Source: Candidatus Methanomethylophilaceae archaeon
Lineage (GTDB): Archaea; Thermoplasmatota; Thermoplasmata; Methanomassiliicoccales; Methanomethylophilaceae
Assembly (NCBI GenBank): GCA_017524805.1
Contig: JAFXUX010000038.1
Location: 1 to 64,000, forward strand
Length of the DNA: 64,000 nucleotides
Direction: 5' to 3'
A program made the translations under genes and the position numbers. Below the pieces are notes generated by a model. That model searched no databases. It was not told the origin of the DNA and saw only the letters and a program-made list of their open reading frames with translations. This document shows, piece after piece, positions 26,799 to 53,880 of this stretch. Within the stretch, counting starts at the first letter, position 1, and the number at the start of each line of letters is the position of its first letter.

Positions 26799-28178
26799 AT
26801 GGCAGCCCGCAGATATGTTGACGTTTTTGAGTCGTACGATCGTTTCACAGAGGGAGACAAGGTGCAGGAATCGTATTGGGATTACGATATCGTCCACAGC
26901 ACCGCAGTCAAGATGAAGGATCGTTATGAACTGGATTTCGGCGCCAACATAGTCCCGGAAGACCCAGACATGGTGGACAATCTTTTCCTGGCCGGAGTCG
27001 ACATGCTGCTTGAGACCGGGATCTACAACATAGATCTGGGCCGCGTCATGCACATCGATGAGGATGAGCTGTACGAAGGCATCAAAATGGCCCCCAGAAA
27101 ACTCAGCATCGGCCATGGCAAAGACAAGTGCAAATGCAAAGCCCGCGTGGGAAATTCCAAGAAAAGGCCTATAATCCAGGGGGGTCCGACCGGAGCCCCT
27201 CTGTCCGAGGAGATATTCATGTCCGTGATAGAGTCCTATGCGGATGAGCCCATGGTGGATGCCATCGTCAGCGGGGTCCTCGAGACCGTGGACGGCCATC
27301 AGGTCCTCACCAACACGCCCTGGGAGATCAAGGCCACCATGGCCGAGGTCAGATATGTCCGCGAGGCAGTAGCCAACTCAGGAAGGCCTGGGATGGGCAT
27401 CTAGGGCCCGCAGACTCCGCTCTCGCCCGACGGCCGTCTCGCAGCCGGGCTGGGTTCCAACGGCATGAGGATATGCGATCCCCACGAGTGCTCACAGCTC
27501 AACGAGCTCAAGATAGACATGGGGGCATTGAACATAATCTCCGGATGGCATTCCGCCGGGGATATAATCCTGATCGAGCAGATGCCGATGTTCGGAGGGT
27601 ATGCAGGAGGCGTCGAGGAGACCGCCATATGCGACGTGGCGACCACTCTCGCCTCATTCGCGGCTTTCAACGCCGACATACATCTCGACGGCCCGATCCA
27701 CATCAGATGGGGCACCACGTCCACCAGAGAGACAATGCAGGTCGCCGCACATGCCGCCGCAGCTCTGGATTACAACACCGACCTCCTTCTCGCCAACCAA
27801 TACTATACGATGGCCGGGCCTTGCACAGAGATGTGTCTCCTTGAGGTTGCCGCCCAAGCGATAGCCGATACAGCATCCGGAAGGGAACTCCTGTCGGGGG
27901 TGGCATCCGCCAAAGGAGTCGCCATCGACAAGGCCACCGGTTTGGAGGCGAGGATGCTCGGGGAAGCCTCGGCGGCCACCTGCGGGATGGAGATTCCGGA
28001 GGTAAACAGCATCCTCGACAAGATAATCTCCAAATACGAGCTGAATTTCTCTTCCGCGCCTCAGGGTAAGACCTACAAAGAGTGTTACAACGTCAACGAT
28101 GCCACCCCGCTGCAGGAGTATCTGAGCATCTACGATTCCGTCTTGGACACTCTCGCCGATTGCGGGCTCAGTTTCTGA
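26799..28178 (+). CDS. mtmB: Monomethylamine methyltransferase, pyrrolysine-containing
   Basis: 459 residues when TAG at 27402-27404 is read as pyrrolysine. The TAG is codon 202, exactly the known Pyl202 of MtmB, and the family sequence continues in frame after it (GPQTPLSPDG, SGWHSAGDIILIEQMPMFGGYAGG, DGPIHIRWGTTSTRET). The enzyme is a TIM barrel that binds monomethylamine on pyrrolysine and transfers its methyl group to the Co(I) corrinoid of MtmC. It ends in TGA, overlapping the tail of the convergent HAD gene by 11 bp. The pyl genes needed to make and load pyrrolysine are not in the window. Confidence 0.95.
27402..27404 (+). other. Pyrrolysine (amber) codon of mtmB
   Basis: In-frame TAG at codon 202. 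The downstream 60 bp are G/C-rich and could fold (a GCCCG...CGGGC pairing around 27430-27455) like the proposed PYLIS element, but I could not fold it. Confidence 0.93.
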
Positions 28179-36578: not shown

Positions 36579-39071
36579 ATGAAATCTGTTCTGGGAGACA
36601 TAATCATCAGGGAGATCTGGAAGGAGGAGCGCGAGGGTGTCTCCGATCTCAAATGCAGGATAGATATATCGGACAGGGACGACGATGGCGTCGAAACCGT
36701 CGAGACGAAGGAGATCAGGTTCTCGGTCCCATCCGAGTATTCCGAATACCTTCTCACGGAGAGGTGCGACGCATATGTCGTATTGCTGCTGAGGTACGCC
36801 GTGAGCAACGGATACAACATCAGGTCCGACATCCCCATCTCGAACGACCTCTATTACAATCTAAAAGAGCAATTCCTTCCGCCCTTCGTCAAGAACGACG
36901 GATACGCGGCCGACCTGATCCTCGAGACGGCCAGCAGCGTCGGAGGGGGCGAAGCGGTAGGCACGGGCCTGTCATGCGGCGTGGATTCCCTGTACACTGT
37001 GATGAGGATGAAAGATTATCCTGATCCCGAATTCAGGCTGACCCACCTGTGCATCAACAACGTGGGAGCTTTCAACGGCCTGTACAGGATGGAAGGCATA
37101 GACAAGGTCCGCAAAGGCATGTACGCCAACGCCCGCGCGGCGGCGGAAGAGATCGGTCTTCCCCTGATCGAAACGGATTCCGATGTCGATGACGTCTTGC
37201 ACCAGAACCATTACCTCACCCACTCATACACATCCGCCTTCGCTATTTTCTGCCTCAAAAAGCTGTGGAAATACTATTTCTATGCATCATCGGGCGTTGA
37301 TTGCATCACTGGGTTCAGCATCAGGGGGCATCTCATGTTCCCGCCGTCCAAATACGAGCTTCTGACCATGGACTGCCTGTGCACCCCAGCCATGAGGATA
37401 TATATCGACGCGCCGACGGTGGCCAGATACGATAAGACAGTTGCATTGGCCGATTATCCCGTGGCGCAGAGGCATCTCGTGTCCTGCACGTCCTCGTACG
37501 TGAATTGCTCGCGCTGCGACAAATGCATGAGGAACATCATGGCCCTGGATTCGGTGGGCAAGCTGGAAGGTTTCTCGAACATATACGATCTGGATCTCTA
37601 TCGCAATTTCAAGTACAGGTACATGTGGTATCTATATTCGAGGAGAGACGACCACTATTTCGAGCCGGTCTTCGAGAATTTCAGGGCCAAGGGCGACGAG
37701 GAGTTCGTTCGCACCGGCCAGATCTACGAGTCGATGGAGGAGTTCGACAGCGCCTGGAAGAGCGGCAACAAGGAGTGGGTGGCCGAGTGCTTCGAAAGGA
37801 TCAAAGGCTACGCCGACGCCGGTGACATGCATGCTGCATCCCGCATAGGCAGGGCCTACAATTATGGCGTCGGCGCGGAGCAGAACCGCGAGGAAGCCCA
37901 GAAGTATTGGGCGATAACTATCGACGCTTTGAGGCAGGAGATCGCCGACGGATTCAACACGTCCAGGATCAAGCTTTTCGACATGCTGTGGGCGACCGGC
38001 GAGGAGAAGTACTATCCCGAGATGATAGAGCTTTTGCAGCCGCTTCTGGACGCGGAGGATATGTCCGCCATAGCCCGCAGAGGGCGCATGAGCAGGGACG
38101 GAAGAGGTTATCCCAAGGATACCGACGATGCCGTACAATGGTTCAGGTGGGCGTACAGGAAGGATCCTGTATGGCTCCAGGAGTATTGCGGCCTTCTCCT
38201 GAGCTCCGGGAAAGAGGAATATTACCAGGAAGCCAGAGAGGTATGCCTCGAGCGCTGCGACAAGAGCGCCAGATACGCGTATGGATTCCTGGGCCGCATT
38301 TATCGCGACGGGAAAGGAGTTCAGAAGGATCTCTGCGAGTCGGCCAAATGGTTCGAATTGGCCGTGATCAACAACGTGGAATGGGCTCCTATAGAGTATT
38401 TCGATGTCCTTTGGACGTTCAACGATCGCATGTAGGATCTGAAGCTCAGGGATTTGGTTCGCGCCATGGCAGAGGGCGGCTCCGTCGCGGCGATGGGCCG
38501 TCTGGGCAAGGTCTACCATTACGGCCGCGGTGTGCCCAAGGATCTCCATCTGGCCCGCAGGTGGCTAAGGCGCGCCCAGGAGAGGGATTTCGTCTGGTTC
38601 CCGGAGTATTACGAGACCCTTCTGGCTTCGGACGAGAAGTTCCATGATGAGGCCTGCAAGAGGTGCATAGCTCTCTCGGACAAGGGCGTGAAGCATGCTT
38701 ACGTCTATCGGGCGCGCATGTATCGCGACGGGTTCGGCTGCGAGAAGAATGCCGACGAAGCCATCGCATGGTACAGGAAAGGCGTCTCGGAGGGCATGGT
38801 CTTGGCCGCGATGGAGCTGTTCGAGATATTCTGGGCCAATCCGTCCCCAGCCACGGACAAAGAGATGATAGACGCCATACTTCCGTTCGCGAACCGCGGA
38901 AGCCCCGGCTGCATGGGCCGTCTCGGCCGCGCTTATCACTACGGAAGGGGCGTCCCGGTGAATCTTGCGATGGCCGAGAGGTGGACCGCCAAAGCCTGCG
39001 AGAAAGATCCTGCGAGATGGAGCAAGGGCCTCGAGACGATAAGGCTCAAGAGAAAATCGGAAAAGCGCTGA
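36579..39071 (+). CDS. QueC-like PP-loop domain fused to Sel1 repeats, interrupted by one in-frame TAG
   Basis: 830 residues if TAG at 38433-38435 (codon 619) is decoded. The start at 36579 follows GGGGAG by 5 bp; an ATG at 36552 is in frame but lies before the predicted transcription start. Residues ~128-145 (GLSCGVDSLYTVMRM) are a PP-loop nucleotide-binding motif; residues ~302-316 (CTSSYVNCSRCDKC) give the C-x7-C-x2-C-x2-C zinc site of QueC-type enzymes. From about residue 400 there are Sel1/TPR-like repeats (AYNYGVGAEQNREEAQKYW, IYRDGKGVQKD). The TAG falls inside a repeat: FDVLWTFNDRM-TAG-DLKLRDLV aligns with FDMLWATGEEKYYPEMIELL earlier in the protein. Repeats continue to TGA, only 9 bp before the next gene. 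Function unknown; possibly activates or amidates a small molecule. Confidence 0.75.
38433..38435 (+). other. In-frame TAG within a Sel1 repeat, candidate pyrrolysine codon
   Basis: The sequence after it (38436-39071) is one long open frame of Sel1 repeats (KVYHYGRGVPKD, MYRDGFGCEKN, AYHYGRGVPVN) in the same frame as the sequence before it. No Shine-Dalgarno site or ATG suggests a new start immediately after the TAG. Decay by point mutation is the alternative. Confidence 0.6.
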
Positions 39072-39080
39072 GGGATAAGT

Positions 39081-41708
39081 ATGGATGGTACCGGCTCACA
39101 CGTGACGCTGCGCATCAGAGGGATACGCCGCGAGGATTCGGAAGAGGTTTCTCGCCTGGTTTTTTCGATAGATAAGACTATAGTGGAAAACAATGGTAGC
39201 ACTACAGTCAACTCAGAAACATTCCTGGAGGCCCCCACAGAATACGCTCCGTTCTTGGTCACAGAAAGAGCCGATGCCATCGTCGCTTTGCTGATAGGAT
39301 ACGCCAGCGGCAAAGGGTGCGAAATACAGTCTGACGTCCCGGTTTCCGAGGATTTCTATCACAATGTTATTGAGATTCTCCTTCCAGAATTGAATGATGG
39401 AATCACTCTGTCTTCCGAGTTGCTTCCTCCGCTTCCTAAGGGCAACTCTGTAGGTTCTGGGATGCAATGCGACGTCGATTCGATGCATGCGGCGATGAAG
39501 TATTCCGATTACAAGATCCAAAGGTTCAAGCTCACTCACCTGTGCACCAGCAATCTGGATTATTTAGGGGATGACTATAGTCTTACTGATGACACCGAAT
39601 GCTTCCTGAGCAGAGCGCGCGAGGTCGCCGGGGAAATCGGGCTTCCGATGATATCCGTCCGCACCAATGCATGCGAGGAGTTCCCGATCGGTTCGCAGGA
39701 CGCCCGCGTCTACGCCGAAGCTTTCATCGCGCTCTGCCTGAGAAAGCTTTGGAGATGCTATTTCATCCCGTGCTCCGAGGAATCAATTGGCTTTGCACCA
39801 TTCCTCATGTCTTGTCTGAGTTCCCCGGGATTGGAGCTGATCCCGGAAGGGCTGCGCATGTCCCGGTACGGGAAGATAGCGGGGATATCCGATTTCGCTC
39901 CGGCTCAGAGGCATCTTCTCTCGTGCCAGTCCGGAGGCGGCAATTGCGGCATCTGCGACGGATGTGCATTCGATATGCTGGCTTTGGATTCGCTCGGAAA
40001 GCTGGACCTGTTCTCCGAGACTTACGATATAGAATTTTATGGGGCGCACAGGGAACGTTATCTGAGGCAACTGGCCCATGAAAGGGACGATCCCAGATAT
40101 GTGCCCATATGCGCTTCGTTCTTGTATAAAGGCGATGCCCAGTATGTTTCTGCGGACGAATCCGAATCGCTGATAAGGAATTTCGATGCGCTATGGGCTA
40201 AGAACGATCCGGAATCGGATGCGGAGGCAGTGGCTTCCATAATGCCGCTGGCATCCGGGGACATCCGCGCCGCATATCGTCTGGCTGACGCGTACGCATC
40301 CGGAAGAGGAGTAAAGAAGAACCGCGAAAAGGAGCTTGGATGCCTCAGGTCCATCGCTGAAACATACAGGATGGAGATGGTCGACGGCTTCCCTTCGGGA
40401 TGCGATCTCTTCGACGTGCTGTGGAGGTCTGGCGAATCCGACTCGGACCTCTTGGATTCCGTGAGGCCGACGGCTGAAGCGGGCGATTCTTCCGCCTGCG
40501 TCCGCATGTCCAAGGCATTCGCCGAGGGGAGAGGGACCAAGAAGGATCCGGACGGTGCGATCTTCTGGATGGGGAAGGCTTTCGAGGCTGACCCGCCCGA
40601 ATATGCCGAGGATTATTGCGAGATGCTCATATCATCCCAGGATCCGGAGAAGCAAGCGGAGGCTGCGCGCCTATGCGAGAGCCAAGCCGCCAGCCTTCGG
40701 AACCCTAAGATGTGCGCGATGATGTCCGGTCTGTTCCGCGACGGAAAAGGGGTAGAGAAGAATCTCTCGGAAGCCTGCGGATGGATGGCCAAGGCCGCGG
40801 AGATGGACAGATCTTATGAGCTCGAATGGTGCAGGATGACATTGGAGCATGGCGATTCCCGTGCCAAAGCCAAAGCCGCCGAGGTCTGTCTCCGCGGCTG
40901 CGAGGAGCTTCAGAATCCGGATTACTGGACGCTCATGTCCGAGATATATCGCGACGGAATCGGAGTGAGGAAGGACATAGGAGAAGCGATCAGATGGATG
41001 AGGGAAGCGGTCGCCGTCAGGCCGTCCAGGCTGTCGTACGAATTTTTCAGGCTGCTCCAATCGTCCGACGATGAGAATAACCGCAGGGAGGCTTTCGAAG
41101 GCGCTACCGAGCGCTTCGAGAAGACCGGGTCCACGATGTATCTCGCGCTCATCGCCCGCGCATACCGCGACGGAAAAGGCACTGAGAAAGACATGGCTAA
41201 AGCGGTCGAGCTCATGAGGAAGGCATCCAAAGAATCGCCGTCCAAATACCTCAGGGAGTATTGCGAGATCCTCGTCGATTCCGACGATCCCAAGGACAAC
41301 AAGGAGGCGCTCAGAAGATGCGAATCCTTGTATTCGAAGACCGGGTCGGCTTTCAGCTGCAAGCTTCTGGCCCGCATGTACCGCGACGGGAAAGGCGTGG
41401 AGAAGGATCTGGACAAAGCCTTCGAGTGGATCGGAAGATACAGGGAAGCGGAAGGCTCCGATGAGCTGGGCTACTGCGAATTCCTTCTGAGCACTGGGAT
41501 GGAAAGCGCCTGCTCAGAGGCCTGGGAAATCTGCAATGAGCGCTATTCGGAGACAGCGGATCCCAAGTGCTGCGGACTCATAGCCCGCATGTACCGCGAC
41601 GGGAAAGGGGTTGGGAAGGACCGCGACAAAGCCATCGAATGGATGGAGAAGGCCTTCCTGGATGACCCCGCCGTTTGGGAAGCCGAATTCAACGAGCTTT
41701 TGGGATGA
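39081..41708 (+). CDS. PP-loop-derived domain fused to Sel1 repeats (paralogue, altered PP-loop)
   Basis: 875 residues, no in-frame TAG. Starts at ATG after GAGGGATAAGT, 9 bp from the previous stop, so it forms an operon with its paralogue. The N-terminal 330 residues match the paralogue (TERADAIVALLIGYASGKG versus TERCDAYVVLLLRYAVSNG), but the PP-loop is altered: GMQCDVDSM replaces GLSCGVDSL. The zinc site CQSGGGNCGICDGC is kept. From residue ~390 at least seven Sel1-type repeats follow (AYASGRGVKKN, AFAEGRGTKKD, LFRDGKGVEKN, IYRDGIGVRKD, AYRDGKGTEKD, MYRDGKGVEKD, MYRDGKGVGKD). Sel1 arrays bind protein partners. ATP binding by this copy is doubtful. Confidence 0.8.
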   Translation: MDGTGSHVTLRIRGIRREDSEEVSRLVFSIDKTIVENNGSTTVNSETFLEAPTEYAPFLVTERADAIVALLIGYASGKGCEIQSDVPVSEDFYHNVIEILLPELNDGITLSSELLPPLPKGNSVGSGMQCDVDSMHAAMKYSDYKIQRFKLTHLCTSNLDYLGDDYSLTDDTECFLSRAREVAGEIGLPMISVRTNACEEFPIGSQDARVYAEAFIALCLRKLWRCYFIPCSEESIGFAPFLMSCLSSPGLELIPEGLRMSRYGKIAGISDFAPAQRHLLSCQSGGGNCGICDGCAFDMLALDSLGKLDLFSETYDIEFYGAHRERYLRQLAHERDDPRYVPICASFLYKGDAQYVSADESESLIRNFDALWAKNDPESDAEAVASIMPLASGDIRAAYRLADAYASGRGVKKNREKELGCLRSIAETYRMEMVDGFPSGCDLFDVLWRSGESDSDLLDSVRPTAEAGDSSACVRMSKAFAEGRGTKKDPDGAIFWMGKAFEADPPEYAEDYCEMLISSQDPEKQAEAARLCESQAASLRNPKMCAMMSGLFRDGKGVEKNLSEACGWMAKAAEMDRSYELEWCRMTLEHGDSRAKAKAAEVCLRGCEELQNPDYWTLMSEIYRDGIGVRKDIGEAIRWMREAVAVRPSRLSYEFFRLLQSSDDENNRREAFEGATERFEKTGSTMYLALIARAYRDGKGTEKDMAKAVELMRKASKESPSKYLREYCEILVDSDDPKDNKEALRRCESLYSKTGSAFSCKLLARMYRDGKGVEKDLDKAFEWIGRYREAEGSDELGYCEFLLSTGMESACSEAWEICNERYSETADPKCCGLIARMYRDGKGVGKDRDKAIEWMEKAFLDDPAVWEAEFNELLG

Positions 41709-41710
41709 TC

Positions 41711-44700
41711 TCACTCCTCGGTCGGCATCAGATTACCGCCTTCCTCCAGGATCAGCCCGTCCTCCACGGCCAAGTCGATGGCCTTCTCGATCGTGGAGAT
41801 TACGTTGGCTCCGGGGCGTTTGAATCCCAAGGCTTTGCCGGCTGCAGAAGCGCATGAGAGCCTAGGAATCGAGACGGAAGCTTCCACGACGTCCAGGCAG
41901 GCGTTCATCAGCTCGATCAGCGGGATGCAATCTATGTCCCTGGAATCTGCGGTAGATTCGGCCGCTCTGTAGGTGCGCATTTTTCTGTCCGCGCCTTCCG
42001 CCCAGTAAGTGACGAAATCATCGCGGATGTCCGGGGAGAACTCGGAGCGCAGGTTGCGGATCAGAGCTTCCTTTTTGTTTCCCACAAGGCGCTTGATCCC
42101 GGTGCCTTTCCTGTATAGGGACAGCAGCAGCTCTTCGTTCACCGGGGATTCCATTGCGATTATCTTCCCGGCGATATCCCTGATCAGATCGCGGTCGGAC
42201 GTAGCGACATCCACGGGAACATCTTCGAATTGGAGGTTCAGCGGGACGTACGTTCTCCGCCTGGGTTCCTCCTCATCGGGTTCCGCATCGTCCACTGGCA
42301 TCTCTTCCTCGGCGCTTTCGTCCGGTGCCACTTGAGGACCGTCTGCGGGAGTATCCTCGGTAGCATCTTTCTGCGGCTCTTCCTCCGCCGGGACGTCGTC
42401 CGGGATGAGCTCTTCTCCGTCTTCCTCTGCCGCCACCGCGCGGTTGGCCAGGATGTCCTCAATCCTGTTCTCTATCTTCTTGAGGGTCAGCTTCTTGTTG
42501 AAGAACCAGTCCACGGACCACACGTGCATGATGTTCCATCCCAGCCTCACCAGGACATCGGATCTGGCGAATTCCCTGTCCCTGGTGTTCTCCGACTTTT
42601 TGTACGAGTCTCCGTCGCCGAGGATTCCCAAGATGTATTCCTGCGGGTTCTCCGGATCCACGACGGCCAGATCAACCCTGAACCCGGAGCTTCCGATTCC
42701 GAAATGCGATTCGTATCCTATCTCGCTGAGAGACTCGGCTATGTCCTCCATGATGGCGGACATGTCTTCGGCTGGCTTGGCATGGTCCTGGTCTCCGAAG
42801 CGCCCGTTGTTCTCGGCGAACTTCAGGAATTCCCTCATGCTGCGGACGCCGCTGCTCGAAGCCGGCGTGAGCTTGACGTCGGTGTATCTCATCGATGAGA
42901 ACACGACCATCTCGCATCTTGCGCGGGAGACCGCGACGTTGAGCCTGCGGCCTCCTCCGGGACGGTTGATCGGACCGAAATTCTGGACGACCGTCCCTTC
43001 CCTGGAAGGCCCGTATCCTATGGAGAAGAGGATGATGTCCCTCTCATCTCCCTGGACCGTCTCCAGATTCTTGATGAACATGCCCTCGGACATCTTCCCC
43101 AGCCTCTGCTGGAATCTCGGATGCTTAGATGTCATGTCATCCATGGCGTCCTCGATGCAGTTCTGCTGGCTTATGCTGAACGCGATTATCCCTATGCTCT
43201 CCCCTTTGTATCCCTTTGACATGACGCGCCTGTAAACCTCGTCGACGACGGCGGCAGCCTCTATGGGATTGCAGCGCCTTCCCTTATGGTATCTGCCCTC
43301 CCTGACGAAGCGCATGCCGACTTTGGTCTCCTGGTCGTTGGGGGACGGGAACGTGAGCATCTTTCCGTCGTAGAAGACCCTGTTGCTGAACGTGATCAGG
43401 CTCTCATGCCTGCTGCGGTAATGCCATTCCAGATAGGTCTGGGGCATGTTCAGCGCGAGGCAGTCTTCCAGGAAGCTTTCCATGTCTTCGATCTCCTCCT
43501 CGCTTTCCTCGGTCTCCATCTGCTTCTGGAAGAACCTGGTCGGAGGGAGCTGCTGCCTGTCGCCGGCGATCACCGCCGCTTTGCCTCTTCCCAACGTGCC
43601 TATGGCTTTGCTGGTGGTTATCTGCGAGGATTCGTCGAATATGACGATATCGAATTTGGGATAGTCCATGGTCAGATACTGGGACACGGACTGCGGGCTC
43701 ATCAGGAGGCAGGGGCACAGGCGGGGAAGCATATGCGGTATCTCTCCCAGGAGGGTCCTGATGGATTTCTTCATGCGTCCCGCGCTGACCGCCCTGTAAA
43801 CTTTTCCAGCTTCCGAATCGGGGATGGAGCTGTCAATGTTGCGCGGCACGTTCTTGTAGAGCCTGTATTTCAGAAGGCTCTTGTTTATCTCCGCATATTC
43901 GGAGTCCAGCTTCCTGAGGCGTTCGACGGTTCCCTCGAACGTAGAGGCGTTGAACATGCGCAGGGATTCCGACTCCTGGCGGCAGAGGTTTATCATCGTT
44001 TTGTACAGCGATCTGTAGGTCGAGTTCACCACGGCATTTGAGTCCATGCCGGACCTTATTGCATCGCACGATGCGCCCAGGCCTTCCTCCTCGAGCTTGG
44101 AGGCGTAATAGTTCCAGTTGGCCCAGTCGAAGACTCCGGCGAGATGCGGGCGGATGGATTCGCAATAAGCCCTGCATTTTTCCGGGAGCGAAATGTCCGC
44201 GTCGGTCTTCATCACGGATATCAGTTTGTCGCGGGCGGCCTCCCATCTTTCGACGGCGCTCTGATAGTCTTCCGCGCCACCGTTGGGCCCTTCCAGAGCC
44301 ATGCGCAGCTCATGCAGCTTGTCAGCGGATATCCCCACTGCTTCGGCGGCGGAAATCGTCTCGTTGGCGCGGACCAGCATATCCGAGAGGGACGCCTTCT
44401 CGGAGGCAATCCCAGCGGAAGCGGAGGCGACCTTTCCCGGGATCGAGGAAAGCGATCTGAAATCCTGGTTCACGGCAGAGATCAGGTCTGCGGTTGTGCC
44501 CAGAGACTCGAAGGCAACTCCTGGGCGGAGCACATTGGAGACGTCGGACATGAACTTCTTCTTGGCCGCGCTCTTGAACAGCATCTTCCCGTCGGCTTCG
44601 TGCCATCCTTTCTTTATGTTGTATCTGGAATCGAAATCGTAGACCTCCGGGCGCCATTGGGTCTCGATGCGATTCATGTCGGGCCCGATGGCTATCAGTT

Positions 44701-47641
44701 TGGAGCAGAACGATTTTACTTTCTCCGCCGACGAGCGGATGGCGCTGTTCGGAGGCAGCCATCCCGCTTCGGTCGCTTCAGAAGCCAGATCTGAGAGCTC
44801 GCCGGAATCCTTCAGCATTTTTGCCGCTTCGTCCTGGCGGACGTCCCTGGGATCCCAAGCTGCGAAGGCGTCGAATATGGAGTCCGAGAGCGAGACGATC
44901 TTCGGAACGACATCAGGTATGCGGGCTATGTTGGGATCCGAAGCGATCTTGGCGTCGGCGGACATGACTGTCGACACGATCCTTCCGGTCCGGTCCGTAT
45001 CTCCGTCTATCCCGGCCGCGGCTATCTTCGGCCCGACGGCATCCAGCGCGTCCGCCGCGGCCAAAGCCTCGTCCATCGCCTCTTCGATGTCGTATTGCAG
45101 GGAGGCGGCAGGCACGTCCGCGTGGATCGTCGCAAGGGCGTCCGTGTCGCACATGCTGGTGGCGATGCCGTAGGCCTGGCATGCCTTTATGATGTCGTCC
45201 TCCAGGTTCCCTACCGTCTCCGGTTTCATCCTCAGCGCGGTGTCGGTGGATATCCTGAGGTCTTTGGCTCCGGCGACGTTATGGGCCTCATAAAGAGAGA
45301 TGCATTCGTACGCGCTGAATCCCCACGCCTGCTTCCTGTGAAGGTCGGAGACGTAGGCATCCAGCTTCTCTTTGGTGGCGCTGAGCTTGGCGATGGTCTC
45401 CTCCAGCTTGGAGTCGTCGAATTCCTTGCACGGCTCCATCGCTTTCCTCAGCTGCTCCAGGACCTTAGTCTTCTCCGTCTTATCGGAATGGAGCTCCAGG
45501 CAATGGTTCCCGATGCCGATGCCATCCAGCCTTTTCTCGACGACGTCCAGCGCCGCTCTTTTCTCGGCCACGAACAGGACCGTCTTCCCGCGGTAGATCG
45601 AATCCGTGATTATGTTGGTGATCGTCTGCGATTTCCCGGTTCCCGGCGGGCCGTGCATGATGAAGGTCTTCCCTTCGCTGGCGGCTCTCACCGCTTTGAT
45701 CTGGGAGGAGTCTGCGGGGACGGTGAGGCATAGGCCGTACGGGTCCGCGTCCGCTTCCAATTCCGGGTCGGCGTGGTATATCCCGCCCGACACCATGGCC
45801 TCCACGACGGGGTTCTCCTTGAGCTTGCCCATGTTCTTCTCCAGGTCTTTCCACATGGCATACTGGCTGAACGAGAACACGCCCAGCGCGGCGCCGTCGA
45901 GGACTTCCCATCCCTCCAATCCTTCTATGCATCTGCGGACGTTCTGGGTGATCCTGTCGACGTTCAGGCCGCCGTCGTCCAAAGGAAGCGGATCTATCCC
46001 GGGGATGTTTATGTCGTATTCCTGGCGAAGCTTCTCGGCCAATGTGACGTTGAAAACGGTCTCCTCATCGTAAGGCACGACCACGTATCCCTTCTGCTTC
46101 TTGATGAGCTCGGCCGGGATGAGGATGAGAGGAGAGTAGCGGGGTATCCTGTCGGCTTTGCTCTCGAACCATCTGAGCACGCCTATGGCTATGAAGAGTG
46201 AGTTGCATCCGCTCTCTTCCATCTCTTTCTTGTACAGACGGTAGATGGATTTGAGCGAGGATATTGTGTCGGCCTCGCCGAGCGGGGTTCTTATCCAACC
46301 TCTGGACAGCTCATCCCCGAACGAGCCCGCATAGTTTCCGACGTAGGTCTCGGTCTCGAACGGCCTTTCCGAGTAGATCCCGGCGCCGTCCCAATCCTGG
46401 GGCTTCGGCATCAGGATGAACTGCGTCCCTTTGGAGAACGTCTCCCCGAACTTCGAGGTGTCCCCGACGAGCAGAGGGACCGCTTTGGCGCCGACTTTCA
46501 TGCTCACCAGCGGGTTCCTGGTGGTGATGTCGAGGAGGTCGCGCTTCCAGATGTCCACGCGGGTCAGCGCTCTGTCCTCGGCCGCCTCGTAAACTTCGCC
46601 GACCTCTTTGGGGGCGACGGATTGGGTATCGAATTCGTCCTTCTCGACGGTCCAGGCCCCATTCTCATATCTGCGGGTCGGGAGGGGTCTGATCGTCGGG
46701 CGGGATTTCTTTATGTCCACGGCGCAGATGAACGATTCAGTGTCCTCCAGGCGCATCAGGGCGGCTTCCGAGGCCACGTCGAAAGCGGCCGCGTGTCCAT
46801 CGCAGAGATATGTGCACTCGACAGCTCTGGCGTCGCGGTTGCGTATCAGACGCGTGATGGCTGAGCTGTCGATGGATGTTATGTCGGCCATGTGGTCGTC
46901 CACGAGCCAGAAACCTGCGAACGCATGGCCTTTGACCAGGAAGATGAACGTGTTGAGGCCGATGGATTCCAAAGCGGAGCAGTAGAGCGCCGATACGTCG
47001 ATGCATGTGCCTTCCCTGTCGGATACTACGGTATCTGCCAGGCGCACCCTTTGGCCTGATTCCTCGAAACCTGCCGGCGGCACGATGTATTTGATTCTGA
47101 GCTTCTGGATGGCGTCGTATACTGCGGCAGCCATCTCGGCTACCCTGTTCCTGTCGCCGCGATAGCCTTCGAGGGATGGGTCTTTGCCCCAGCTTCTGAG
47201 CGTCTCAGAGGCTGAATCGCGGATTTTAGCAAGGCAGGAAGCGTTGGGAGTGACGAAGGACGCTATGAGCTCCGGACTGTCCGGACCGGGCCAGTATTCG
47301 AACGGGAGGATCTCGGTGTCGCAGGACTCGGATTTGATGCTTCCGTCTTCGCCTTCCGCTAGCAAGGTGACGCGGCAGGGCATCGTCTCGGCGGCTTCCA
47401 GCAGGCGGGCGGGATCCAACGACACGTTGAAGTGCTCTCTGAGATCCAGAATCGTGCCGGCGGCGATCCCGTCGGCTTTGAACGAGATTTCCTTGATGAA
47501 AGGCGGATCCGATCTGAGCGTGAAGGTGATATTCTTCTCGTCTTCTTCGGCCTCCGCCGTCGCCGTAAGGACGGGGTTCATCCCATTCCTGTAGAGCACG
47601 TACCCTATCTTGCTGATTTCCAACTCGAGTTTCAGTTTCAT
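41711..47641 (-). CDS. Giant DUF4011-type superfamily I helicase with Vsr-like nuclease and DUF3320 (probable anti-phage protein)
   Basis: 1976 residues from the ATG at 47641 (MKLKLELEISKIGY), which overlaps the PLD gene stop by 4 bp. Order: N-terminal beta region; transglutaminase-like fold (~205-245: EGTCIDVSALYCSALE, KGHAFAGFW, with Cys, His and Asp); DUF4011-like region (~390-600, RVDIWKRDLLDITTRNPL); SF1 helicase with Walker A GPPGTGKSQT (~665), DESSQ (~1333), QGDERDIILFS and VAVSRAR; Vsr/DUF559-like endonuclease (~1640-1710: GSSGFRVDLAVVDP, GWNIMHVWSVDW); an acidic linker; a DUF3320-like region (~1815-1870) and a wHTH-like tail. This order resembles the candidate defence protein described as DUF4011-helicase-Vsr-DUF3320 (Hhe). 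Foreign-DNA destruction is inferred. Confidence 0.82.
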   Translation of the reverse strand: MKLKLELEISKIGYVLYRNGMNPVLTATAEAEEDEKNITFTLRSDPPFIKEISFKADGIAAGTILDLREHFNVSLDPARLLEAAETMPCRVTLLAEGEDGSIKSESCDTEILPFEYWPGPDSPELIASFVTPNASCLAKIRDSASETLRSWGKDPSLEGYRGDRNRVAEMAAAVYDAIQKLRIKYIVPPAGFEESGQRVRLADTVVSDREGTCIDVSALYCSALESIGLNTFIFLVKGHAFAGFWLVDDHMADITSIDSSAITRLIRNRDARAVECTYLCDGHAAAFDVASEAALMRLEDTESFICAVDIKKSRPTIRPLPTRRYENGAWTVEKDEFDTQSVAPKEVGEVYEAAEDRALTRVDIWKRDLLDITTRNPLVSMKVGAKAVPLLVGDTSKFGETFSKGTQFILMPKPQDWDGAGIYSERPFETETYVGNYAGSFGDELSRGWIRTPLGEADTISSLKSIYRLYKKEMEESGCNSLFIAIGVLRWFESKADRIPRYSPLILIPAELIKKQKGYVVVPYDEETVFNVTLAEKLRQEYDINIPGIDPLPLDDGGLNVDRITQNVRRCIEGLEGWEVLDGAALGVFSFSQYAMWKDLEKNMGKLKENPVVEAMVSGGIYHADPELEADADPYGLCLTVPADSSQIKAVRAASEGKTFIMHGPPGTGKSQTITNIITDSIYRGKTVLFVAEKRAALDVVEKRLDGIGIGNHCLELHSDKTEKTKVLEQLRKAMEPCKEFDDSKLEETIAKLSATKEKLDAYVSDLHRKQAWGFSAYECISLYEAHNVAGAKDLRISTDTALRMKPETVGNLEDDIIKACQAYGIATSMCDTDALATIHADVPAASLQYDIEEAMDEALAAADALDAVGPKIAAAGIDGDTDRTGRIVSTVMSADAKIASDPNIARIPDVVPKIVSLSDSIFDAFAAWDPRDVRQDEAAKMLKDSGELSDLASEATEAGWLPPNSAIRSSAEKVKSFCSKLIAIGPDMNRIETQWRPEVYDFDSRYNIKKGWHEADGKMLFKSAAKKKFMSDVSNVLRPGVAFESLGTTADLISAVNQDFRSLSSIPGKVASASAGIASEKASLSDMLVRANETISAAEAVGISADKLHELRMALEGPNGGAEDYQSAVERWEAARDKLISVMKTDADISLPEKCRAYCESIRPHLAGVFDWANWNYYASKLEEEGLGASCDAIRSGMDSNAVVNSTYRSLYKTMINLCRQESESLRMFNASTFEGTVERLRKLDSEYAEINKSLLKYRLYKNVPRNIDSSIPDSEAGKVYRAVSAGRMKKSIRTLLGEIPHMLPRLCPCLLMSPQSVSQYLTMDYPKFDIVIFDESSQITTSKAIGTLGRGKAAVIAGDRQQLPPTRFFQKQMETEESEEEIEDMESFLEDCLALNMPQTYLEWHYRSRHESLITFSNRVFYDGKMLTFPSPNDQETKVGMRFVREGRYHKGRRCNPIEAAAVVDEVYRRVMSKGYKGESIGIIAFSISQQNCIEDAMDDMTSKHPRFQQRLGKMSEGMFIKNLETVQGDERDIILFSIGYGPSREGTVVQNFGPINRPGGGRRLNVAVSRARCEMVVFSSMRYTDVKLTPASSSGVRSMREFLKFAENNGRFGDQDHAKPAEDMSAIMEDIAESLSEIGYESHFGIGSSGFRVDLAVVDPENPQEYILGILGDGDSYKKSENTRDREFARSDVLVRLGWNIMHVWSVDWFFNKKLTLKKIENRIEDILANRAVAAEEDGEELIPDDVPAEEEPQKDATEDTPADGPQVAPDESAEEEMPVDDAEPDEEEPRRRTYVPLNLQFEDVPVDVATSDRDLIRDIAGKIIAMESPVNEELLLSLYRKGTGIKRLVGNKKEALIRNLRSEFSPDIRDDFVTYWAEGADRKMRTYRAAESTADSRDIDCIPLIELMNACLDVVEASVSIPRLSCASAAGKALGFKRPGANVISTIEKAIDLAVEDGLILEEGGNLMPTEE

Positions 47642-48414
47642 CTGCCCATCCTCTTTTTGCTCAGCGCCAACTCCATCTTGGCGCGGTCGCCTTCCGAAAC
47701 CGTTTGAAGCGAAGGCGATTCCCATAGTTTATCGTATGCATCCCGCAGCTCGCGGAAAATGTCCGGCAAGTCGCTCTCCATTATGCGGATGCCCCATTCC
47801 TCCGCTGTCGTGAGGGCGCTTTTGGAGATGTTCGCCGAGCCTACGTATGCCTCCCCATTGCCGTTCGGAGAGGTGAAAATGAAGCTTTTCGCGTGTATGT
47901 GGTCCTCTGCGGTGGCATCGAACTCGAATTTCACTTCCGTATTGGGGAGCGAAGCCAATTCGATGACGGCTTCCGCCTCTGTGGAACCCATGAATGAAGT
48001 CGTTATGGTGCGTATTTTCGTTCCTTCTTCGGCTCTTTCCCGGAGCCAATCGATCATCAGGTTCAGCCCGGACATCTTGATGAAAGACACCACTATGTCG
48101 ATGCCATCCGCATGGGAGGCCGATTCTTCCAGAGCGTCGATCAATGCGAATCCGCATCCCGGGGTCACCGCAGAGCTGTGGGATGGGATCTCCGCGAAAT
48201 CGCGCTCGCTCTTCCTGATGCCAGCTCTTTTCCAGTTCTTTTTCGTTTTTGTAAATATTATAATCTTAGTTTTGTTCACGTTTTTCTTGCCCAGGAATTC
48301 TTCGGGCATGCATATCCCGCAAACTTTACCACTATCGCAGGTGTACTCTCCCTCACGTTTTTCACATATTATGCAGGGGTTCTTCACGCGGGGATACATG
48401 AGGGCGCATGCCAT
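47638..48414 (-). CDS. Phospholipase-D-type nuclease with N-terminal zinc finger
   Basis: 258 residues. Cysteines at about 14, 17, 26, 32 and 35 (CIICEKREGEYTCDSGKVCGIC) suggest a zinc-binding finger. The rest is a single PLD domain with the catalytic pattern H-x-K in DHIHAKSFIF (~172-180) followed by GSANISKSAL, as in bacterial PLD nucleases that act as dimers. Directly upstream of, and overlapping by 4 bp, the giant helicase gene, so the two make one operon and probably one defence system in which PLD cuts nucleic acid. Alternative start at the sixth codon (MYPRVKNPC). Confidence 0.8.
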   Translation of the reverse strand: MACALMYPRVKNPCIICEKREGEYTCDSGKVCGICMPEEFLGKKNVNKTKIIIFTKTKKNWKRAGIRKSERDFAEIPSHSSAVTPGCGFALIDALEESASHADGIDIVVSFIKMSGLNLMIDWLRERAEEGTKIRTITTSFMGSTEAEAVIELASLPNTEVKFEFDATAEDHIHAKSFIFTSPNGNGEAYVGSANISKSALTTAEEWGIRIMESDLPDIFRELRDAYDKLWESPSLQTVSEGDRAKMELALSKKRMGR

Positions 48415-49810: not shown

Positions 49811-51523
49811 TCAATCGCCAGATTCTTCCAGTTCCCTCAGGAATCTTTTTATTTCCTCCAGATCAGCATCATTCCAATCCGAATGTTTGCGGTTCAGAAG
49901 GGCCGGCGGGAATCTCATTATGTCTCCGTAGAGCGCTTCCATGATTTTCTCGCCGTTGTTGGGGCCGCTCAGAACGAGGTCCTCGAATTGAATATCTTTT
50001 ACCGGGAAGAAATCCGATCTGTCGAATAGTTTCCGCCTCGGGCGGGGGACGGGGTTGTCAAAGGTCAGAGCCACCGCATCTCCCTCGGAGCCTCCCATGT
50101 CTTTCGTGAAATTCTTTTTGGCCTCTTCATAGGTGCCAATTATTCTGGGGTCCTTTACCGGGCTGACCTTATTGGCCAGATCTTCTTTCGCCAGCGCGTC
50201 GATCTTCGCGCGCAATCCGGCTATGTAGTTTCTGTACTCTTCCCATCCTTCGTCATCCGAGGATCTCACGCCGTCGAAGATCATCACGTCTATATGCAGC
50301 ACTCTGGGGCTCACGTCTCTCATCCGGATCTGATGGCCGTAATTGATTCCGTTTCCCATCGAGCTGAGATATACGAATTCTTTCGTTTTCATTTCAGGGT
50401 CGTCTTCCAGCGCTTTTGCGAGTCTGTCGTAATCCTCGCGCATCATGTAGATGTCGACGTCGTCGTCCCACGGTATGAATCCTCCGTGGCGGGCGGACCC
50501 CAGCAGAGTCCCGCATGCGATCATGTAGTTTACGCCGAACTTCCTGCATTTGCCGTCCAGCTTTTTGAGCATCGCTCTGAGCCCTTCCTGGATGGTGGAG
50601 ATTCTGGAGTCGTCGATCTTTATCGACCTGAAGATTTCGCTTACGTTGTCTTTGGAAATCAGGCCCGCTTCAATGGCGGCATCAAGGGCTCCGTTGAGGG
50701 TGTCAGAGGCGTTTCTGCTGCTCAGAAGGCCGGACGTCCCGCATTCCATCATGGCGTCGATGACGGTCTGGAAGTCCTTTGCCATCTGTTTTTCCGGGCT
50801 CTCCGAATTCTTCAAGAAATCAGCGTATGACGCAGGCACTCTGAGGTTCGTTTCCATCAGGGCCAAGAACATGCGGTCGGCGGAGCGCTCACCTAAATAT
50901 TTGGCCGCTGCGATGTCGTCTTGGTCGAGCCGGCTTTTTTCCGCGGACTCCAGGGCGCCGTTCCCTTGGCGCATCAGCTCCAAAGCAAGCCATGGGAGCT
51001 CTTTTTTCCAGTTGGGCGGTAGCTCCCCGATGCGGCTCAGGATTTCTGCGGCCTTTTCCGGGTCTTTTTCGGTTCCGTTTCCGTGGATATGGGCGGACAT
51101 CAGGCGCAGCTGGGCGCATAACGAATCGGGATCCCGGGATTCCAGCAGGTATCTGCATGCCAGATTCCGGCAGACCGGATCGCCCGAAGAGGATGCGATA
51201 TCATAGAGCATGCAAGCCGCCGTCATGGATCCCAGATCCGCGGCGGATTTCATCCACGATATGGCTGCGATCTCGCTTCTTTCCGTTCCGATACCGTTGT
51301 TGTACGCTTTGGCCATGCGTATGATCGATTGGATGTCACCGGATTCCGCGAAAGGCTCTACCACGCGTAACGCTTCTTCTCTGCTTTCCGGATCATCGGA
51401 TGCGCGGAGGGCGTCGAAGAGTTCGGCAGCCGCTTCTGCAGAGCCGGCGAGTGCGTCGCGGCGCAGAATGTCCAGAGTCCCATGCATTTGGGCTGTATTC
51501 TGATCCTCAGCGTCTCCATCCAT
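49811..51523 (-). CDS. Sel1 repeats fused to LicD-family phosphotransferase (copy A)
   Basis: 570 residues, start supported by GGAGG with a 7-bp spacer. Residues ~55-160 are Sel1 repeats (AKAYNNGIGTERSEIA, SAHIHGNGTEKDPEKA). From about residue 310 it is a LicD-type nucleotidyltransferase-fold protein: GTLLGSARHGGFIPWDDDVDIYM (338-360) carries the catalytic DDD triad. LicD enzymes of bacteria transfer phosphocholine from CDP-choline to surface glycans; relatives transfer other phospho-groups. The LicC-like gene at 55517 fits such a pathway. Downstream of copy B on the same strand, separated by a hairpin. Confidence 0.85.
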   Translation of the reverse strand: MDGDAEDQNTAQMHGTLDILRRDALAGSAEAAAELFDALRASDDPESREEALRVVEPFAESGDIQSIIRMAKAYNNGIGTERSEIAAISWMKSAADLGSMTAACMLYDIASSSGDPVCRNLACRYLLESRDPDSLCAQLRLMSAHIHGNGTEKDPEKAAEILSRIGELPPNWKKELPWLALELMRQGNGALESAEKSRLDQDDIAAAKYLGERSADRMFLALMETNLRVPASYADFLKNSESPEKQMAKDFQTVIDAMMECGTSGLLSSRNASDTLNGALDAAIEAGLISKDNVSEIFRSIKIDDSRISTIQEGLRAMLKKLDGKCRKFGVNYMIACGTLLGSARHGGFIPWDDDVDIYMMREDYDRLAKALEDDPEMKTKEFVYLSSMGNGINYGHQIRMRDVSPRVLHIDVMIFDGVRSSDDEGWEEYRNYIAGLRAKIDALAKEDLANKVSPVKDPRIIGTYEEAKKNFTKDMGGSEGDAVALTFDNPVPRPRRKLFDRSDFFPVKDIQFEDLVLSGPNNGEKIMEALYGDIMRFPPALLNRKHSDWNDADLEEIKRFLRELEESGD

Positions 51524-51678: not shown

Positions 51679-53880
51679 TCATATTTTCGGGGTTCTCTTT
51701 GCAAGGAACGCTTTGATCCTTTTCAGATTGTAGTCTTTGCCTTTGACATGGTTGCGCATCATGTCTCCGGGGAACCTCATGGGAGACCCGTAAAGATTCG
51801 TCAGGACTTTCATCGGGTCGCGGGGCCCGGGGAGCATAATGTCCTCGAATTTCATGTATACCGGCGGGAACACTTCGTCGTATCTGAATATCTTCTTTTT
51901 GTGGGATACTCTGGGGTTGTCCATGGTCATCGCTACGGCGGTCCCGCCTTCTCCGCGCATATCTGATTCGAAAGATTCCCTGTAGCTCGCGTAGAGGTCT
52001 TTGATCCTCGTGTCTTCCAAGGGGTTGAGGCCTTTCTCTTTGTCTTCTTCGTTGAGGTCATCGATCATTTCTCTGAAGCTGTGGGCGTAATCGGAATATC
52101 TCTGCAATCCGGCTGGGTCGGCGGACTCGACGTAATCCAGCACCATGACGTCCAGGAACATGTTCGCGCCCTTCATCCTCATGTGGATGTGGTTGAACCA
52201 TTGGGTGGTATCGGCCTTGCTCTCATACAATCTGCTGTGTATCCTGAACGGAGAGTTTTCGTCCAGCACAGTCTTGAGCTTCTCAAAATCCTCGCGCATC
52301 ATGTAGTAGTCGATGTCGTCATCCCACGGGACGAATCCCCCGTGGCGATAGGCGCCCAGAAGCGTTCCGCAGGCGATCACATATTGGATTCCGTTGGCCT
52401 TGCAGATGTCGTCGAACGACTTCAACATCAGTTTGAGGACTTTATGGATGTTCTCCAGGTCGCTTTTGTTGATCCTCAGGGCTGAGAAAATGCTCTTAAG
52501 ATCATCCTCGGCAATCGCTCCAGCTTCCAAGGACGCTTCCAGCATCCTGTTCATCGTCCCGGATGCGTTTCTCGGGGTCAGAAGGTATTCATCTTCGAAT
52601 TCCACTAGTATGTCCAGGATGGTCTGGCAATCCTCGGCGATGAAGCTCTTGGGATCCTCGACGTTCTTTATCAGTTTTCCGTATGACGAATCGAGGCGGA
52701 GATTGTTCTCAATCAAAGCGGCTAAGACGTGTTCCTTATGGGATTCGACCAGTCTGGGCGCCCATGCCGGCATGTTCTCGGAGAAGTTAAGCTTCTTGAT
52801 GGACGAAATCATGTCGCCCTCTTGGTACGACATATACAGCGCCATTTCCATCAGATCTGACAGATAAGTCTCCCTGTCCAGCCCGGCAGTCAGGCTTACG
52901 GCGGCTTCTCTAATTTCAGGGTCGCTGCTGAGACAGCAAAGCTTGCCCAAACACACCCTTTCGTCTGGTTCCTCGACAGGGTCGTCGCTTTCTACCGCGC
53001 GTTTGGCCATGGCCTCTGCGGCTTCGGCATCTTTTTCCATGCCTATGCCCTAGTAATATGCTTTGGCGATGCGGATCATGGCGGATACGTTGCCAGATTC
53101 CGCGAAGTATTTAAGTGAAGGTATTATCGCTGCAGCTCCCTTGGGATTGGGCGCGCTGCCGACGGCAAGGTCAAACATGCGTACCGTATGCTTGCATGCT
53201 TCGTTGCGGGCAGATTTGAAATCGGAATTCAGATCCTGGATTTCTTTCAGATTCGCTTTGGCCCATGGAACGTCCTCTTTGTACGACAATATCGCCCATT
53301 TCTCGGCTTCGCTCAGATCCTTTTTGTAGCATTTGCCTCTGTAATACATCTTTCCGATGCGGGCCATAGCCCTAGGATTGCCGTTCGCGGCGGATTCCTC
53401 GGCTATTCTCATCATCTCGGAATTGTCATCGGAATCTCCCAGCCTCCAATAGATATCGACCAGAGTGTTGCTGACGAAAAAGTTGCTCAGGATGTCCGAA
53501 TCGTGCATCCAATCTGCCATCACGCGAAGCGCTTCTTTGCTGGCGCCACGGCTTTCAACCAATTTTCTTACGGCTTTCAAGCTGTCCGTGTTCTTTTCCT
53601 CTATTTTGGAGCAGACAATCGGAACGATGCGTTCGGCCATCTCTTTGTCGATAGTCGCAGGCAAGTTTTGCATAAGCATGCATGCCGCATCGAAGCCCTC
53701 TTCCGGGTGTTCGGATATGAGTTCGCACACCTTCTACTCCTTGAGATCGAATCTGGTGTAATATGAGTATTTCAGCTCGTCGGCCAGTTGGGAGAAATCA
53801 CCTGATTCGGCGGTTAAGATGGCTTTTTTCAATCCATCGCAGCTTCTGTTCGAAGCGTCTTTTCTTATGATGTCAGTCAT
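51679..53880 (-). CDS. Sel1 repeats fused to LicD-family phosphotransferase (copy B), interrupted by two in-frame TAG codons
   Basis: 733 residues from ATG at 53880 to TGA at 51679 if TAGs at 53734-53736 (codon 49) and 53050-53052 (codon 277) are decoded. The three pieces share one frame. Around the second TAG, IAKAYY-TAG-GIGMEKDAEAA matches copy A's MAKAYNNGIGTERSEIAA residue for residue, so it lies inside a Sel1 loop. The first lies in a helical N-terminal region (TRFDLKE-TAG-KVCELISEH). The C-terminal LicD domain is intact: GTLLGAYRHGGFVPWDDDIDYYM (505-527). It should transfer a phospho-group to a surface glycan. A TATA box (ATTATAA near 53943) precedes it. Either amber codons are read as pyrrolysine or the gene is decaying only through TAGs. 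Confidence 0.75.
53050..53052 (-). other. In-frame TAG within a Sel1 repeat of copy B, candidate pyrrolysine codon
   Basis: Codon 277. The flanking residues align without gap to the intact paralogue, where the same position is asparagine (AYNNGIG versus AYY-TAG-GIG). Confidence 0.62.
53734..53736 (-). other. In-frame TAG near the N-terminus of copy B, candidate pyrrolysine codon
   Basis: Codon 49. Upstream, 48 in-frame codons lead back to an ATG at 53880 with a TATA box farther upstream. A GTG six bases after the TAG could serve as an alternative start, so this site is weaker evidence than the one at 53050. Confidence 0.5.

Follow-up and report, generated by a model that had tools for sequence, protein, structure and literature searches.

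The TAG at codon 619 of an archaeal PP-loop/Sel1 gene is, with a probability that we put at about 0.93, a sense codon read as pyrrolysine, giving one intact protein of 830 residues. The gene lies in the window, a stretch of 64,000 nucleotides from contig C38 of an archaeal draft assembly (genome G000; 1.95 Mb in 47 contigs); the closest genome with a name is a rumen MAG, by its label Methanomassiliicoccaceae archaeon Tb.RUG.172. Its frame consists of 618 codons, the TAG (38433-38435), 211 further codons and a TGA (39069-39071). The original prediction, made from the letters alone, had these coordinates exactly right, as it did the 636-bp frame after the TAG and the 9-bp gap before the ATG of a tandem paralogue at 39081. 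The gene and its surroundings are laid out as follows.

36579-39071, plus strand: PP-loop/Sel1 gene, full coding sequence, 830 residues with the TAG counted as an amino acid (translation, colinear orthologues over 830 residues, AlphaFold model)
36969-36989, plus strand: ATP-binding PP-loop motif LSCGVDS, residues 131-137 (conservation among homologues, fold match to PP-loop ATPases)
37485-37526, plus strand: cysteine cluster C303-x6-C310-xx-C313-xx-C316 (all four cysteines invariant in homologues)
37719-38432, plus strand: Sel1 solenoid before the TAG (Pfam PF08238, solenoid structure matches covering residues 458-829)
38433-38435, plus strand: in-frame TAG, codon 619, putatively read as pyrrolysine
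38436-39068, plus strand: Sel1 solenoid after the TAG, 211 codons (Pfam PF08238 with E = 3e-21, dN/dS)
39072-39080, plus strand: 9-bp spacer; the TGA is overlapped by a GAGG-like ribosome site (sequence)
39081-41708, plus strand: tandem paralogue, 875 residues, lacking a TAG (36% identity over residues 11-570, 31% over 598-868)

When 60 related genomes, including that of the window, were searched at E <= 1e-30, the gene was matched in 10 of them, its own genome again counted. The closest orthologue, found in the sister species G026 (MAG JAEEJP01; JAEEJP010000034.1) with 89% amino-acid and 84% nucleotide identity, carries the identical TAG at codon 619 in the same context. Elsewhere the equivalent codon is CAG (Gln) in G018, GAC (Asp) in G027 and TAC (Tyr) in G001, G002 and a second copy in G026, and in all five of these genes the region around it is an open frame. 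Between the window gene and its G026 orthologue, dN/dS was 0.053/0.892 for residues 1-370, 0.056/0.831 for residues 371-618 and 0.075/1.202 for residues 620-825, so that the tail is as constrained as the body (ratio ~0.06) while silent sites are near saturation. Taken together, the TAG kept in the sister species, the constrained tail and the sense codons in other orthologues indicate that the TAG is translated, most probably as pyrrolysine. The comparison of orthologues had been proposed as a check by the original prediction, and its claim that translation normally reaches 39071 is borne out by the uninterrupted orthologues, the shared TAG, purifying selection after it and the conserved order of the gene pair. 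The prediction had drawn that claim from operon spacing; in G026, G027 and G018 the two genes again stand together, with little space behind the stop of the full-length frame, which favours this argument, but spacing alone is no proof.

The sequence on either side of the TAG also belongs to a single protein. The paralogue at 39081-41708 is colinear with both the pre-TAG and the post-TAG parts by sequence alignment, and Pfam Sel1 matches lie on both sides of 38433-38435, with PF08238 scoring 99.2 bits for the full protein (39.5 pre-TAG and 75.5 post-TAG) against a gathering cut-off of 30.7. The codon score after the TAG is +48 in the gene frame, with none of the five alternative frames above -0.3, compared with +55 before the TAG at equal length. 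At this base composition an open frame by itself would be weak evidence; with homology and the coding score it becomes strong. DNA repeats of the Sel1 unit at 38098, 38308 and 38521 (spacings of 210 and 213 bp) keep both spacing and frame across the TAG, in agreement with part of the earlier description of a TAG in the middle of a Sel1 unit; however, codon 619 maps to a short turn or helix formed by residues 617-620 and flanked by solenoid helices, outside the Pfam-matched units. An AlphaFold model of the full 830-residue protein has a pLDDT of 90.7 over its whole length, and the predicted fold is continuous through residue 619. Solved Sel1 proteins align with the model across this residue: 4bwr over residues 458-829 (Z 25.3, rmsd 10.3 A, 370 aligned) and 6ork over residues 603-830 (Z 18.0, rmsd 4.7 A, 222 aligned), the large rmsd values probably reflecting differing solenoid curvature.

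The cause that the original prediction lacked is an encoded pyrrolysine system, to which a methyltransferase gene with a TAG inside the window was already a clue. We found a complete pyrrolysine cassette on contig C25 of the same genome, listed here with the mtmB gene of the window:

C25:7127-7197: pylT, tRNA-Pyl, anticodon CTA in the DNA (CUA)
C25:7204-8037: pylS (252.6 bits, curated NCBIfam cut-off 178)
C25:8047-9105: pylB (432 bits, curated NCBIfam cut-off 348)
C25:9102-10259: pylC (304 bits, curated NCBIfam cut-off 248)
C25, ending at 11077: pylD (195 bits, curated NCBIfam cut-off 150)
Window 26799-28178, plus strand: mtmB, monomethylamine methyltransferase (PF05369, 721 bits), TAG at codon 202 (27402-27404), the positive control in the window

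The expected in-frame TAG was present in 4 of 4 methylamine methyltransferase genes found (two mtmB, one mtbB and one mttB), and that of the window's mtmB is also present in the sister species. In the proposed mechanism, PylS would charge tRNA-Pyl(CUA), which would decode codon 619 and so allow one 830-residue protein to be made. We detected no PYLIS-like RNA element 3' of codon 619, where the RNA fold was no better than shuffles (z = -0.40), and no preference for base context 3' of the TAG was evident among 30 sites; the missing RNA structure speaks neither for nor against a pyrrolysine reading.

Because the genome also contains an aRF1 gene, some termination at TAG is possible, and pyrrolysyl-tRNA would compete with aRF1 at UAG. 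We surveyed 764 kb (39% of the genome), calling genes with TAG as a sense codon by means of a home-made codon score. By this score the candidates for a TAG stop number no more than 9 among 649 called genes, a figure that fits the 1.6% of stops given for 'Ca. Methanomethylophilus alvus' (PMC4153887). A few genes may still end in TAG, so that it may not be a sense codon everywhere; since it is nearly unused as a stop, pyrrolysyl-tRNA probably wins over aRF1 in general. The alternative that survives best is decoding with two outcomes, in which termination would give a short form and pyrrolysine a long one, their ratio being set by the supply of methylamine or pyrrolysine and the Sel1 tail serving as a regulated extension. 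With aRF1 and tRNA-Pyl both acting on UAG in one cell, and pyrrolysine-dependent regulation described for Acetohalobium (PMC4153887), such an arrangement is conceivable, but we consider it unlikely: very low use of TAG as a stop fits constitutive decoding, as was argued for M. alvus (PMC4153887), the TAG sits mid-solenoid away from domain borders, and close orthologues yield the long form only.

Much less probable still is that the TAG is a real stop, leaving a young pseudogene or a 618-residue protein whose tail is decaying or separately translated. The presence of aRF1 and possible internal starts (TTG at 38454, ATG at 38466) would suit this explanation; those starts, however, are preceded by a weak AGG at best, each orthologue consists of one uninterrupted frame, and the same TAG kept over near-saturated synonymous divergence, with a tail dN/dS of ~0.06, largely refutes it. 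All seven internal stops in homologues of the gene are moreover TAG, none being TAA or TGA, and they are scattered over unrelated sites aligned to residues 190, 219, 291, 460/461 and 619, the pattern expected from a sense codon arising at random. The chance that a suppressor tRNA other than tRNA-Pyl inserts a canonical amino acid is similarly slim: relatives do have Gln (CAG) or Tyr (TAC) at this codon, but no CUA anticodon other than that of tRNA-Pyl was found among 44 Rfam tRNA hits (checked with ARAGORN) or in an intron-aware scan of the sampled 39%. A sequencing or assembly error replacing a sense codon, conceivable for a contig from a draft assembly, is refuted by the identical TAG in an independently assembled sister genome at 84% nucleotide identity and is of negligible probability.

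Under the preferred reading, in which codon 619 is decoded as pyrrolysine, the TAG would have arisen, possibly by neutral change, at a variable turn of the solenoid that is probably exposed at the surface. In relatives this position is occupied by Gln, Asp or Tyr, and a single base change would turn CAG or TAC into TAG. The codon would be tolerated because the lineage appears to be efficient at decoding TAG and seldom ends a gene with it. A special conserved role for residue 619 was considered and rejected, since its column varies among Gln, Asp, Tyr and TAG and the homologues' TAGs lie at unrelated sites. Pyrrolysine itself probably has no special role there, as these natural replacements suggest.

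The original prediction had pointed to a LicD/Sel1 gene as a second locus with the same signature and had proposed that Sel1 genes might be enriched for in-frame TAG.

51679-53880, minus strand: LicD/Sel1 gene with two in-frame TAGs (53734-53736 and 53050-53052)

An in-frame TAG is indeed present in this gene, although there are two rather than one. Beyond a tandem paralogue and a partial match it had no orthologues at E <= 1e-40, and the gene most like it on the sister contig is ~35% identical. A second LicD/Sel1 gene without a TAG adjoins it (49811-51523, minus strand), and a Sel1 gene at C43:32912-34225 is interrupted by two TAGs and perhaps by a third close to its start. In a genome-wide Pfam search for Sel1, the 28 genes recovered (13,623 codons) contained 8 internal TAGs, or 0.59 per 1000 codons, as against 19 (one of them in mtbB), or 0.09 per 1000, among 618 non-Sel1 genes with 212,042 codons (p = 1.4e-4). 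Leaving out the two genes that had prompted the question, 5 TAGs remain (0.41 per 1000 codons, p = 0.008), and counting genes rather than TAGs gives p = 0.03. Three of the non-Sel1 genes with a TAG (C9:116971, C19:8770 and C19:12777) look like false calls, and retaining them in the counts makes the comparison conservative. The proposed enrichment therefore holds, at about 5-6-fold per codon, but as a modest excess whose simplest cause would be relaxed constraint in fast-changing repeat genes; it offers a testable clue to how TAG spreads once a stop becomes a sense codon. In these gut methanogens, Sel1 genes might even take up pyrrolysine codons by preference, so that the full-length forms of their many Sel1 proteins (here a QueC-like enzyme among defence-like neighbours) would depend on the supply of pyrrolysine and hence of methylamine, and nutrition would switch accessory or defence proteins on and off; this strikes us as distinctly improbable.

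The signature is not specific to Sel1 genes, contrary to what the original prediction had implied. Among ~25 TAG-interrupted genes in the 764 kb surveyed, ~18 lie outside the Sel1 and methyltransferase genes and include Kae1/TsaD, citrate synthase, a PHP protein, transcription regulators and others.

C6:57444-58391, minus strand: single-copy Kae1/TsaD gene with an in-frame TAG at codon 107 (frames of relatives full-length and without TAG)

Kae1/TsaD was matched in 34 of 40 relatives searched, 33 of them with a full-length gene and one with a split gene, and none with an internal stop; if its TAG is translated here, TAG decoding may be indispensable to the organism. Annotation with the standard code would cut all ~25 genes at their TAGs, Kae1/TsaD included, in the sampled 39% alone. 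In the sister species, the syntenic contig (G026:C56) shares 85 of 90 genes and retains the TAGs of the PP-loop/Sel1 gene, of mtmB and of a gene with a PHP domain. G026 also has TAGs of its own at positions where G000 has sense codons, for example in a diphthine-synthase-like gene (the C38:91961 orthologue), where TAG stands in place of Glu, and these extra TAGs mean that TAG is still being gained.

The N-terminal 380 residues of the protein had no family match by sequence in Pfam, PHROGs, PADLOC or the PDB. Modelled alone, the N-terminal part reached a pLDDT of 91.4, and its best structure matches were QatC (9y02_B; Z 14.4, rmsd 4.9 A, 306 aligned) and Cap9 (9nto_B; Z 12.4, rmsd 3.0 A, 171 aligned), compared with Z scores of 8-10 for general PP-loop enzymes; Foldseek alone gave a weak signal. 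The model thus identifies the domain as a predicted QueC-like PP-loop fold, closest to the anti-phage proteins QatC and Cap9. Across 19 homologues, G128, V135 and D136 are invariant and G130, G134 and S137 nearly so. QueC carries an SGGxDS motif and a zinc motif C-x8-CxxCxxC (PMC13329287); relative to these, G134, V135, D136 and S137 are conserved in the SCGVDS of the gene with Cys replacing the first Gly, and the cysteine cluster resembles the zinc motif but has a spacing of x6 instead of x8. The fold, the PP-loop motif and possibly the cysteine cluster are the features shared with QatC (of qatABCD) and Cap9 (of type IV CBASS), from which the gene differs in having no sequence-level match to them and in being fused to Sel1 repeats. 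Tandem QueC-like domains fused to Sel1, here at 36579-37718 and in the paralogue at 39081-40220, also occur as a pair in several related genomes.

In defence systems, QueC-family enzymes have a partner protein that they modify or are believed to modify (PMC13279940), and the pair has candidate defence genes as neighbours.

41711-47725, minus strand: helicase-nuclease of 2004 residues with DUF4011, AAA and REase_MTES_1575 domains (PADLOC PDC-S37, 1036 bits), tail to tail with the paralogue of the QueC-like/Sel1 pair
47638-48414, minus strand: PLD-type nuclease following the helicase-nuclease

These two nuclease genes beside the pair possibly mark a defence island. In those neighbouring genes that were scanned (Pfam, PADLOC), we recognised neither QatA, QatB or QatD nor a CD-NTase with Cap10. 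A defence role for the QueC-like/Sel1 protein would be a lead to follow rather than a result.

The TAG in the PP-loop/Sel1 gene is a further clear case of a known kind of decoding, and the protein concerned has no connection with methylamine metabolism. In 'Ca. Methanomethylophilus alvus', 16 pyrrolysine proteins were predicted beside the methyltransferases, and AGI86303.1, with a Sel-1 domain and 389 residues, is among them (Borrel et al. 2014, PMC4153887). That archaeon belongs to the same methanogen order and has the same cassette, TAG in non-methylamine proteins including Sel1, and rare TAG stops; the gene described here differs in combining a QueC-like PP-loop domain with Sel1 repeats in 830 residues, and we have shown conservation of the TAG between species and selection on the tail. 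Similarly, 46 genes with an in-frame amber codon, across many functional classes, were listed for ISO4-H5, one of the rumen Methanomassiliicoccales, and the portions of that report considered here name no Sel1 or PP-loop gene and present no selection test (PMC5011839). Selection, beyond homology alone, shows long-standing translation, on an evolutionary scale, of a TAG that lies in none of the methylamine enzymes, and the PP-loop/Sel1 gene offers a clean target for mass spectrometry. In MtmB, MtbB and MttB the TAG is decoded by the same machinery, but pyrrolysine there is catalytic and invariant, whereas residue 619 is variable. Kivenson and colleagues, in Science in 2025, reportedly described an archaeal 'Pyl code' in which every TAG is pyrrolysine and TAG is nearly absent as a stop. 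TAG may likewise be read genome-wide as pyrrolysine here, although in the 39% surveyed up to 9 called genes may end in it. What this gene adds to these known systems is comparative evidence stronger than usual, a modest statistic for the excess of TAG in Sel1 genes, and the QueC-like/Sel1 fusion as a lead.
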